A program made the translations under genes and the position numbers. Under the pieces are notes generated by a model. That model was not told the DNA's origin. It saw nothing but the letters and a program-made list of their open reading frames with translations, and did no database searches. A stretch of 41,967 nucleotides of DNA, taken from NCBI GenBank assembly GCA_021813405.1, contig JAKAKS010000035.1:1-41967 (forward strand), in the 5' to 3' direction. The stretch's first letter is position 1, and the number at the start of each line of letters is the position of its first letter. Source of the DNA: Nitrospirota bacterium (GTDB taxonomy: Bacteria > Nitrospirota > Thermodesulfovibrionia > Thermodesulfovibrionales > JdFR-88). Shown here one piece after another: positions 16,539-20,571 of this stretch.

Positions 16539-16928
16539 TCAGCAGCCGGCAGTGGCCTGGTTTCCCCCGGTAATTGAATCGATCAGGTCTTTAAGTTTTT
16601 CCATTTCCATGGATTTATCCATGAATGCGGCGCGCTCCAGTCCGGGGTGTTTCCTGATTTCCGCCTCCGGATAGCCGGATATGATTATGACCGGTATATC
16701 GAAACGGGCCAGTATCTCCTTTGCGGCCCATGGACCCCTCAGTTCTCCCCTTAATTTGGCATCTATAAGCACGACGTCTGGACGCGCGTTTTCAGCCAGG
16801 CTGACCGCTTCGTCCGCAAATGACGCATGCCCGCATATCTGGAACCCCCAAAGGCCGAGGTTCTCCTTAAGAAGCAGGGCAGACATGTAATCGTCCTCAA
16901 CTACAAGTATTTTTTTGCCGGGCGACAT
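16539..16928 (-). CDS. Stand-alone response-regulator receiver domain
   Basis: 129-aa single-domain CheY-like protein. The acidic pair is in ILVVEDDYMSALLL, the phosphoacceptor aspartate in RPDVVLIDAKL, and the conserved Thr/Ser in VIIISGYPE. The lysine is in AAFMDKSMEMEKL (usually followed by Pro; here Ser). There is no output domain. It starts 4 nt after the stop of the preceding receiver gene and is the third gene of the kinase-receiver-receiver operon. It may relay phosphate or compete for it (inference). SD is weak. Confidence 0.88.
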   Translation of the reverse strand: MSPGKKILVVEDDYMSALLLKENLGLWGFQICGHASFADEAVSLAENARPDVVLIDAKLRGELRGPWAAKEILARFDIPVIIISGYPEAEIRKHPGLERAAFMDKSMEMEKLKDLIDSITGGNQATAGC

Positions 16929-16932
16929 AAGA

Positions 16933-17319
16933 TCAGGCCTGGCCCGTGTGTTTTGTGTTGTTCAGGAGTTTTTCAACCGTTTCCCTGAGTATCTCTTCGT
17001 TTACCGGCTTGTTGAGGAATTCAACGCCGTCCGGGATGCCAACTTCCTCCTTCACCCCTTCGCGCAGGTAGCCGGACAGGAATATTATCGGCACGAACTT
17101 TTTTGCGCGTATCCGCCTGGCCGTCTCTATGCCGTCTATTTCGCCCTTGATGCGGACATCCATGGTAATGAGGTCCGGCCGGCATTCTTCGTCCAGCCAG
17201 ATTGCGCGGGCCCCGGAGTAAGCGGAACCGCAGACCTCATAACCCCATTTATCAAACAGGTCCGAAAGGCCCAGGGCGCCAAGCGCCTCGTCTTCCACTA
17301 TCAATATTTTATTTTTCAA
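16933..17319 (-). CDS. Stand-alone response-regulator receiver domain
   Basis: 128 aa. KILIVEDEALGALGL holds the acidic cluster, LITMDVRIKGEIDG the phosphoacceptor aspartate, PIIFLSGYLR the Ser and VEFLNKPVNEEIL the Lys-Pro, so all receiver residues are intact. It starts with TTG (plus-strand 17317-17319) 3 nt after the kinase stop, without a clear SD, so its translation probably depends on coupling. It is about as long as its neighbour and similar to it (both contain a WG(Y/F)(E/Q)(V/I)CG segment), consistent with duplication. Confidence 0.88.
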   Translation of the reverse strand: MKNKILIVEDEALGALGLSDLFDKWGYEVCGSAYSGARAIWLDEECRPDLITMDVRIKGEIDGIETARRIRAKKFVPIIFLSGYLREGVKEEVGIPDGVEFLNKPVNEEILRETVEKLLNNTKHTGQA

Positions 17320-17322
17320 TGT

Positions 17323-19701
17323 TCATTCTTTCTCAAAAGTTATTATGAATGCCGTTCCCCGTCCGGGGGCGCTGCGGATATCCACTTCGCCCATAAGCTG
17401 CATGGCCAGATTATAAACTATCTTCAACCCCAGGGAGCTGGCCTTCCTGAGGTCCGTGCCTTCCGGCAGGCCTATGCCGTTGTCGGCCACCGTAAGCTCA
17501 ATCTGCGCATCGCCAACAGAGCGCAGCCCCACACTTATTTTGCCTGCTATATTGTCCGCAAACGCGGCCGGAAAGGCGTATTTCATGGAATTCGAGATAA
17601 GCTCGTTTATTATAAGCCCGCAGGGGATGGCTGCGTCTATCGAGACCACGGCGTTTTCAACCGCCAGATCGATAGCGATATTTCTGCCGCCTTGAAGGAA
17701 ACTGCCCGTGAGCGCTTTTACAAGGTCGGTAATGTAGTCCTTGAGGTCCAGCATGGAGAGGTCGCCGCTTTTGTAGAGCTTCTCATGCACAAGGGCCATG
17801 GCCTGTATCCTGCTTTGCAGTTCATGCGTCTTTGCGGCCGCCCCTTTATCATTTATGGAGCGTGCCTGAAGGCCAATGAGGTTCGTGATGACGTGCATGT
17901 TGTTTTTAGTGCGATGGTAGACCTCCTTTAAAAGCATCTCCTTTTCAGCCAGAGCGGTCTTGAGTTTTTGGTTGGATTCTTTAAGCGCATCTTCCGCCTG
18001 CTTGCGCGCAATAGCGGTTGCAACCTGGTCTGTAACCGTGCTCATCAGGCCGATCTCTTCCTGGGTGAAGTACGCCCGGTCACGGGCGCCGAACGATAGC
18101 GTGCCGATTGTTTTTCCGTGATAGACCAGGGGGTGGCAAGCATAGGCCTGTATGCCCAGAGAGCGGAGCAGCTCGGTCCTTTCATCCGGATTATTAGGGA
18201 TGTCCTCCGCAATTATCCTGCATCCGTCCCTGGCCACGCACCCGGAAACCGTAATCCCGAAATCCAGACACTCGATCTCCTTTGCGGCCGCCCCCGTAAT
18301 CCCGTAATAGGCATTCAGGCGAATCCGCTGGCTGCCGTCTTCGATCAGATAATTGAAAAAGGTATGGCAGTTCAGATACCTCATCACTTTCCCGGCCAGC
18401 CCCTGGACGATTTTCTTCGGCATATCAACAGATAAAAGCATCCTTGCAGTCTCGGCGAGAAGCCCCAGCTTTTCTTTTTCCCTTTTTATGGCGCTTTCGG
18501 CCCGCTTGCGCTCTGTAATGTTATGCGCGATCTTTGAGACGCCTAATACCTTCCCGTTTTTATCCGTGATAGGCGAGAAGGTCAGTGAAACGGGTACGGC
18601 CGTCCCATTCTTGCGCATGCGCAAGGACTCAAAATGATCTATATGCTCTCCCATTGAAATGCGCCTGATGATTTCATGTACTTCATCGCCATGCCCTGGC
18701 GGTATGAGAAAAGAAATGTCCCTTCCCACAGCTTCCGATGCGCTGTAGCCAAAAAGCTTTTCGGCCCCGGCATTCCAGCTTTGGATAATCCCATTCAGGT
18801 CTTTGCTGATAATTGCGTCGTCAGCGCTCTCAACGAGTGCGGCCAGGCGCCCCCTCAGGGCTTCAGCCTGCCTGCGTTCAGTTATATTACGGAAGACCAG
18901 CACTACGCCAATTATCCTGCCGTCATGGTCTCTTATCGGGGCGCTGCTATCATCTATCGGGACTTCGGTGCCGTCTTTCCTTATCAATATCGTATGATTT
19001 GCAAGGCCCACCACCATACTTTTTTCAAGCGCTTTTTTGATAGGGCTTTCAACCACAGCCCTGGTGTGCTCATTGATGATATTGAACACGACGGTCACCG
19101 GTTTTGCCTCTGCCGTGCCCAGGCTCCAACCGGTAAGCTCTTCAGCCATCGCGTTCATGAAAGTTATCCTGCTCTCAGTGTCGGTAGCTATTACTGCGTC
19201 CCCGATGCTTTCCAGGGTGGTTGCCCAGCGCTGCTCTTTTGCAATAAGATGGGCTTCAGCCAGCTTGCGGGCCGTAATATCCTCCATGTAAACAAGGCAT
19301 AGGGTTTCATCAGGAAAGTGGATAAGCGAGGTGGACACCAAAAATATAAGCTCTTCAGGATCTTCCTTGTTTCCAAACCAGCCTCTGGTTTCAATCTGGC
19401 GCTGATTGATGCCTGTCCTGAAGGTTTCAAGTATTGCGTTTCGGACAATGCAGCCGCCGCAAACCGGGCCAAAGCCGCATCCGCCTGAGGCGTCCTTGGA
19501 GTGGATACATTTGAAAGCATCCCCGTGCCTGTGGCCCGTGGTTTCCTGCCAGGCGCGTTTTGCGAGCGCCGATGCCGTTGCGTTAGCCTTCCGGATATTT
19601 GTTCCGCTGTCTACCAGCAACACGGCCATGGGCACGTTTTCAAGCATGGCCTCAAGCTCCAGGCGCGTGTTTTTGCGTGGTTTTCTGCCAGCTTTACTCA
19701 T
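17323..19701 (-). CDS. Soluble multi-PAS/GAF sensor histidine kinase (HisKA_2)
   Basis: 792 aa, no membrane helix. An N-terminal PAS (about 15-145) carries a four-cysteine cluster C65-x9-C75-x5-C81-x2-C84. Next come PAS2 (about 155-275, SIGDAVIATDTESRITFMN) and PAS3 (about 285-400, SADDAIISKDLNGIIQSWN). A GAF domain (about 415-565) leads to a HisKA_2 domain with VYHRTKNNMHVI (about 600) and HATPase_c with NELISNSMKYAF and VADNGIGLPEG. It is a cytoplasmic sensor, possibly redox- or metal-responsive through the cysteines (inference). It heads an operon with two receivers. The ATG lacks a clear SD. Confidence 0.9.
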   Translation of the reverse strand: MSKAGRKPRKNTRLELEAMLENVPMAVLLVDSGTNIRKANATASALAKRAWQETTGHRHGDAFKCIHSKDASGGCGFGPVCGGCIVRNAILETFRTGINQRQIETRGWFGNKEDPEELIFLVSTSLIHFPDETLCLVYMEDITARKLAEAHLIAKEQRWATTLESIGDAVIATDTESRITFMNAMAEELTGWSLGTAEAKPVTVVFNIINEHTRAVVESPIKKALEKSMVVGLANHTILIRKDGTEVPIDDSSAPIRDHDGRIIGVVLVFRNITERRQAEALRGRLAALVESADDAIISKDLNGIIQSWNAGAEKLFGYSASEAVGRDISFLIPPGHGDEVHEIIRRISMGEHIDHFESLRMRKNGTAVPVSLTFSPITDKNGKVLGVSKIAHNITERKRAESAIKREKEKLGLLAETARMLLSVDMPKKIVQGLAGKVMRYLNCHTFFNYLIEDGSQRIRLNAYYGITGAAAKEIECLDFGITVSGCVARDGCRIIAEDIPNNPDERTELLRSLGIQAYACHPLVYHGKTIGTLSFGARDRAYFTQEEIGLMSTVTDQVATAIARKQAEDALKESNQKLKTALAEKEMLLKEVYHRTKNNMHVITNLIGLQARSINDKGAAAKTHELQSRIQAMALVHEKLYKSGDLSMLDLKDYITDLVKALTGSFLQGGRNIAIDLAVENAVVSIDAAIPCGLIINELISNSMKYAFPAAFADNIAGKISVGLRSVGDAQIELTVADNGIGLPEGTDLRKASSLGLKIVYNLAMQLMGEVDIRSAPGRGTAFIITFEKE

Positions 19702-19797: not shown

Positions 19798-20571
19798 ATG
19801 CCGGGGCAAATCAATATCGGGTGCAGCGGGTTCTCGTATAAACATTGGAGAGGTGTTTTCTATCCCGAAGGGCTGCCTCCGTCCAAATGGCTGGCATACT
19901 ATACTGAAAAATTCCACACGGTTGAATTGAATGTAACTTTCTACCGCCTGCCCAGGGAAAGCACGTTTGAAAAATGGTACAGGGAAACACCTTCCGGTTT
20001 CCGCATATCGGTAAAAGGAAGCAGGTATATCACCCACATAAAAAGGCTGAAAGACCCTAAAGACCCGCTAAAGAGGTTTTTCGATAATATAAAGCCCCTG
20101 AAAGAAAAGATGGCCGTTGTGCTTTGGCAGTTACCCCCAGGCTTCAAGGCGGACCCGGCAAGGCTTGAAACCTTTCTCAAGGCGCTGAAACCATACAGGG
20201 CGAAAAACGCTTTCGAGTTCCGGCAAGAGTCCTGGGTGAAAAGCAGCGAGGTAAAAGAGATGCTTGCCGCAAATGGGGCTTGCCTGTGCATGGCGGACTG
20301 GCCGCCGTTCGTAAACGCCCTGCCGCAGGAGGCGGATTTTGTGTACATAAGAAGGCACGGGCATGGGATATACGGGGCGTCATATTCACAAGGGGAGCTT
20401 GACGAAGATGCCAAAACGGTTAAGAGTTACGCCAGAAAGGGCAAGGATGTGTTTATTTATTTCAACAACGATATAGAAGGGTTTGCTCCCAAAAACGCGC
20501 TGGAGCTTATAGGCATGCTGGGCGCGTCCCCGCCGCATCCCGCCCTCAAGGAAGAGGGTGTTGCCGTTTAA
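19798..20571 (+). CDS. DUF72 (YecE-like) TIM-barrel protein
   Basis: 257 aa, normal length. The N-terminal IGCSGFSYKHWRGVFYPEGL, then FHTVELNVTFYRLP, FRISVKGSRYITH and FEFRQESWV are the DUF72 signature strands. The fold is a TIM barrel of unconfirmed function, reported across bacteria and archaea. The C-terminal part YIRRHGHGIYGASYSQGEL and DVFIYFNNDIEGFAPKNALEL also matches. PolX follows 11 nt after the stop, so the two are probably one operon. No SD precedes its start. Confidence 0.9.
   Translation: MPGQINIGCSGFSYKHWRGVFYPEGLPPSKWLAYYTEKFHTVELNVTFYRLPRESTFEKWYRETPSGFRISVKGSRYITHIKRLKDPKDPLKRFFDNIKPLKEKMAVVLWQLPPGFKADPARLETFLKALKPYRAKNAFEFRQESWVKSSEVKEMLAANGACLCMADWPPFVNALPQEADFVYIRRHGHGIYGASYSQGELDEDAKTVKSYARKGKDVFIYFNNDIEGFAPKNALELIGMLGASPPHPALKEEGVAV

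Follow-up and report, generated by a model that had tools for sequence, protein, structure and literature searches.

NreB, a histidine kinase of Staphylococcus carnosus, is the main iron-sulfur PAS sensor in the literature we searched, and the accounts cited here describe an O2-labile [4Fe-4S] cluster that is held on four cysteines of its PAS domain and controls the kinase (PMC4601167, PMC8534201). A large PAS survey mentions Fe-S PAS as nine domains within its heme cluster, with NreB cited (PMC10468136), and sulfide sensing, perhaps via heme, has been reported for an NreB homologue of Bacillus licheniformis (PMC9918477), so that cofactors can differ between relatives. AirS of Staphylococcus aureus is described as a [2Fe-2S] histidine kinase with an N-terminal four-cysteine cluster spaced C-x7-C-x-C-x17-C (PMC4601167), and the cytoplasmic PAS domain of WalK as binding a regulatory Zn2+ at its surface, with H271 among the four ligands (PMC6624279). 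Here, we analyze a sensor kinase encoded in a 41,967-nucleotide stretch of DNA from a Nitrospirota bacterium (contig JAKAKS010000035.1; hereafter, the window), the first PAS domain of which carries four cysteines in another arrangement. An account of the PAS motif C-x8/9-C-x5-C-x2-C was not found in the mostly open-access literature searched, and the cysteine spacing used as a query returned only a spider-venom paper. The domain, which we call the 4-Cys PAS, represents a conserved, apparently unnamed PAS subfamily.

The kinase and its N-terminal PAS domain

The kinase gene lies at 17323-19701 on the minus strand, as do all of the features within it, and its open reading frame, taken from ATG, encodes 792 residues in the Pfam order 4-Cys PAS, PAS, PAS, GAF, HisKA_2 and HATPase_c. 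The 4-Cys PAS spans approximately residues 13-149 (19255-19665), as judged from its AlphaFold elements and the family alignments. It is followed by a second PAS domain (approximately residues 158-280; 18862-19230) and a third (approximately residues 285-400; 18502-18849), both placed by Pfam; by cysteine count, the second is cysteine-free and the third is cysteine-free in the region counted. A GAF domain (GAF_2 model, residues 434-565; 18007-18402) then leads to the HisKA_2 phospho-acceptor domain (residues 593-666; 17704-17925), with HRTKNN at residue 596, and to HATPase_c (residues 696-790; 17332-17616). Pfam scores of 75.2 bits for HisKA_2 (cut-off 22.3) and 50.2 bits for HATPase_c (cut-off 26.4) place the protein in the HisKA_2 histidine kinase class. 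Compared with a relative in a record titled Nitrospirae bacterium (L002), dN/dS is 0.19 for the whole gene and 0.21 for the 4-Cys PAS, indicating purifying selection on both.

The cysteine block, C65-x9-C75-x5-C81-x2-C84, maps to 19450-19509, with codons at 19507-19509 (Cys65), 19477-19479 (Cys75), 19459-19461 (Cys81) and 19450-19452 (Cys84). The first-pass annotation had given exactly this spacing for the first PAS domain of the kinase, and had located it at 19448-19510, the right place but one or two bases too wide. It had also remarked that a cysteine cluster is absent from most PAS domains, which is generally true with exceptions. In this genome, 43 PAS_8 regions (110 residues taken from each hit start) average 1.3 cysteines each, and four of them, the window's included, have four cysteines spanning no more than 31 residues. 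The remaining three of these four (C33:4980-5102, C12:4428-4556 and C41:26044-26166; L119, L131 and L124 of genome G000) carry four or five cysteines in the equivalent PAS loop. Their spacing, C-x8-C-x4-C-x4-C or near it, is unlike that of the window domain, and the 4-Cys family profiles match no more of them than the N-terminal half or scattered stretches. A C-x10-C-x2-C loop is present in two more PAS domains of the genome (C33:4233 and C33:1808).

Existing domain models stop short of the cysteines. PAS_8 scores 21.5 bits on the 4-Cys PAS, just below its cut-off of 21.8, and the Pfam and NCBIfam PAS models, all below cut-off, cover only approximately residues 11-64, with the cysteine block beyond. 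An AlphaFold2 model built from three alignment rows (mean pLDDT 70) has its elements in PAS order, namely a helix, two strands, C-alpha to F-alpha and three strands, and the best Foldseek matches are PAS/LOV domains (E 2e-6). VIA gave Z up to 11.0, and the two lists contain PAS, LOV, heme-PAS and PYP domains, so that the predicted fold puts the window domain in the PAS superfamily. In the model, the cysteines lie between C-alpha (residues 41-51) and F-alpha (residues 82-96), with C84 in the first turn of F-alpha. The Cys loop is at low confidence (pLDDT below 50 at residues 51-62 and 68-80), which fits an empty cofactor loop but also plain uncertainty. A search of PDB sequences with the single window domain gave one irrelevant match only, and the family profile matched PAS chains over roughly positions 3-55, with no credible PDB sequence match over the cysteine block. 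The only two PDB matches past position 55, to the fungal Zn2Cys6 protein PUT3 (E ~0.8), were judged to be chance.

Conservation of the four cysteines

A tblastn search of 295 genomes from the phylum to which the window belongs, with the window domain as query, gave 46 matches in 32 of them. We examined 31 loci, which comprise 29 distinct relatives because L001 is the window itself and L002 and L003 are one gene, and C-x8/9-C-x5-C-x2-C with GCG is present in all 31. The only positions invariant in 29 aligned rows are N40, G60, C65, G74, C75, G76, C81 and C84, and adding Fusobacteriota and Bacteroidota rows (31 in total) leaves N40, G60 and the four cysteines. Alignment A2 was made without L010 (cut by a stop), L003 (the L002 gene), L025 and L028, in all four of which the cysteines are intact.

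Because ordinary family profiles reward cysteines and would make the reasoning circular, we wrote the four cysteine columns of a 13-row profile, the window domain among the rows, as X. This Cys-masked profile gave 51 matches at E ≤1e-8 in the 295 phylum genomes. Full-domain matches number 44 (E ≤6.6e-15, 30 genomes), and every one has the four cysteines; 43 fit the pattern and L161, by eye, is spaced 9-6-2. The motif is absent from the other seven, which match in the N-terminal half only (E ~1e-9); one of these, L208, instead has a loop with four cysteines spaced C-x7-C-x3-C-x-C, and another, L202, has several cysteines in the loop region. The window domain itself, being a row of the profile, matches it at E 4.5e-45 and carries the motif. 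Two weak partial tblastn matches (G248:C44 and G062:C5) were left out and are absent from the masked-profile list, hence 32 genomes by one search and 30 by the other.

Reducing 90 profile-match rows to 51 unique sequences and then to those below 80% identity gave a non-redundant set of 42 domains, window included, that share 18-51% identity with the window domain. The first-pass annotation had named non-conservation of the cysteines in orthologues as evidence against its reading; in this set, all 42 domains keep the four cysteines, spaced 9-5-2 in 33 and 8-5-2 in nine. On these alignments, the four-cysteine cluster is conserved beyond chance. H67 is present in 32 of the 42; being frequent yet variable, it gives no help in choosing a cofactor.

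The unmasked profile matched 47 of 394 relatives' genomes at E ≤1e-12 (weakest among the matches listed, 7.6e-21). The subfamily extends beyond the phylum, with members on plasmid records of Ilyobacter and Cetobacterium, both Fusobacteriota, and of Phocaeicola, one of the Bacteroidota. The five Fusobacteriota and Bacteroidota domains are matched nearly end to end by the masked profile, which was built without them, at domain E 4.9e-22 to 1.2e-6. Matches in Bacteroides finegoldii and Martelella were left out of the member set, and an Azospirillum match (L035, E 0.07) was rejected because it has no Cys cluster. A plasmid collection searched with the window domain and with L029 gave no match.

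Outputs, gene neighborhoods and a viral contig

The 4-Cys PAS is attached to a HisKA_2 kinase in the window and L096; to a HisKA kinase in L079 (with MASE3), L081 and L034 (both with PAS); to a hybrid kinase in L088 and L037; to HATPase_c without a recognized HisKA in L089 and L097; and to a GGDEF diguanylate cyclase in L083, L085, L032 and L033. L090, L087 and L092 have no known output domain. Since the same module, with its four cysteines kept, occurs on so many outputs, it is best read as an interchangeable sensory input domain. Six short members with frames of 199-230 residues (L009, L014, L015, L018, L022 and L023) share a segment after the PAS domain like LLPICAWCKKIRDD, with a C-x2-C of its own; Pfam named no domain in the post-PAS segment of L090, one such short-protein type.

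In the window, two stand-alone response regulator receivers identified by Pfam follow on the minus strand, one of 128 residues 3 bp after the kinase (16933-17319) and one of 129 residues 4 bp further on (16539-16928), and the order kinase-receiver-receiver is the same in L002. A DUF72 protein (window 19798-20571, plus strand) is encoded divergently, 96 bp from the kinase start, and at that place in L002 lies an ORF matching it in size and orientation. The nearest relatives outside the genus, L079 and L080 (genomes G033 and G076), have domains approximately 50% identical to the window's, and downstream of the 4-Cys kinase both encode, in the same order, proteins of approximately 350, 1047 and 152 residues; in L079 these begin with an NMT1-like substrate-binding protein, and a PAS-GAF kinase comes next. 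L088 and L098 (G156 and G267) encode a CHASE8-HAMP-4-Cys PAS hybrid kinase flanked on one side by a TonB receptor and a YfiR-like protein and on the other by an HD-domain response regulator. The neighbors of L088 were domain-scanned, and in L098 only the regulator was, its other assignments coming from agreeing sizes. Pfam scans of 10 neighbors from seven loci, plus two neighbors in another scan, gave no shared pathway.

Among viral contigs, 34 stretches carry the DNA pattern of the motif, and one of them, L052, encodes a member (E 1.2e-31). Its gene (L052:828-1583, minus strand; L078:3028-3732, plus strand) lies on the 92.9-kb contig IMGVR_UViG_3300022188_000229, adjoins tRNA-Cys, tRNA-Ser and a CUA-anticodon tRNA (Pyl by ARAGORN), and encodes a 234-residue protein with a 4-Cys PAS and a HisKA-type DHp domain, the ATPase being absent. 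The protein is perhaps a phage product that taps host two-component signaling. A second viral stretch (L061; E 0.009, 55-residue frame) was judged to be chance, two further DNA patterns run over the viral contigs gave no match, and neither did a search of a phage collection with the L052 protein.

Candidate cofactors and comparison with known sensors

By analogy with NreB, we consider it probable that the 4-Cys PAS serves as an Fe-S input domain responsive to redox state or oxygen. The four cysteines in the C-alpha/F-alpha loop would ligate an iron-sulfur cluster, probably [4Fe-4S], whose gain, loss or oxidation would register oxygen, redox state or NO. Such a change would reshape F-alpha and the sheet, and the signal would be relayed via the helix that comes next, the second and third PAS domains and GAF so as to switch autophosphorylation of the HisKA_2 kinase, which may then phosphorylate the two receivers encoded just downstream. 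Strong COX1-family matches (best E ≤1.4e-50, in 128 of 295 genomes by hand count from the match list) occur in 25 of the 30 member genomes, being absent from five, as against 103 of the 265 others; this association with heme-copper oxidases (Fisher p 3e-6) fits oxygen or redox sensing, but kinship and genome size, for which it is uncorrected, confound it. A weak Pfam match to Fer2 (2Fe-2S; E 0.003) is present in one member of 31. The first-pass annotation had suggested a redox- or metal-sensing kinase, and for that reading speak the predicted PAS fold, the modeled position of the cysteines in the usual cofactor loop and a sensory role indicated by modular attachment; the choice between Fe-S and zinc is less firm, as Fe-S is preferred here only by the NreB analogy and the confounded oxidase association.

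Zinc, held by the four cysteines either structurally, to fix the loop, or as a regulator, is an unlikely alternative. An invariant set of four cysteines ending in C-x2-C would suit it as well. Zinc knuckles are paired C-x2-C motifs, a pattern from which the long x8-x9 and x5 spacings depart. A purely structural zinc would leave the shuffling of the module among many signaling outputs unexplained, although the PAS domain could be sensing something else. WalK offers a precedent for regulatory zinc in a kinase PAS domain and thus for metal regulation, though its site, as described, is at the surface and includes H271 rather than consisting of four loop cysteines (PMC6624279). It is improbable that the cysteines instead form a metal-free thiol switch, in which disulfides made on oxidation would change kinase activity, as ArcB is described to do with cytoplasmic PAS cysteines (PMC4601167, PMC8534201). 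ArcB needs two such residues, whereas the invariance of four at near-fixed spacing in 42 of 42 domains better suits binding by four ligands.

If the domain is an Fe-S input module, then C-x8/9-C-x5-C-x2-C could mark an undescribed and widespread class of Fe-S PAS domains, a suggestion we make tentatively, which feeds oxygen or redox signals into two types of histidine kinase, hybrid kinases and c-di-GMP synthesis in several phyla and which a phage has acquired in the form of a PAS-DHp protein lacking the kinase domain. The subfamily, recognizable by sequence, is present in 30 of the 295 genomes sampled from the phylum and in Fusobacteriota and Bacteroidota. It would give a testable redox-type input for many kinases and diguanylate cyclases currently annotated merely as PAS proteins, and the four cysteines are a clear four-residue target for mutagenesis.

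AirS resembles the window kinase in having an N-terminal four-cysteine cluster that controls a kinase, and is set apart by its published spacing (PMC4601167). The likeness to NreB lies in four loop cysteines within a PAS domain at the N terminus, a final C-x2-C pair and a kinase output in a protein that looks cytoplasmic. We compared one NreB relative, from Niallia taxi (L165), found with a staphylococcal NreB sequence as query. Its cysteines are spaced C-x2-C-x11-C-x2-C as against C-x9-C-x5-C-x2-C in the window, and its kinase is of another class than the HisKA_2 kinase of the window, presumably HisKA_3. In hhalign, the family profile aligned with it over 33 N-terminal columns only (probability 4.6%), the HMM alignment ended ahead of the cysteine block, and the Cys-masked profile gave no match to it. 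NreB is partnered by an NreC-like DNA-binding regulator, whereas the two single receivers of the window have no DNA-binding domain. With spacing, homology over the Cys block and type of partner all different, the window kinase is hardly an NreB-family oxygen sensor proper, and the 4-Cys PAS is not a member of that family. NreB is nevertheless its nearest functional analogue, and the two may work alike. If the 4-Cys PAS is indeed such an Fe-S class, then together with NreB and the three Cys-loop PAS domains of different spacing in this genome it would mean that the C-alpha to F-alpha loop became a site for a four-cysteine cluster several times.
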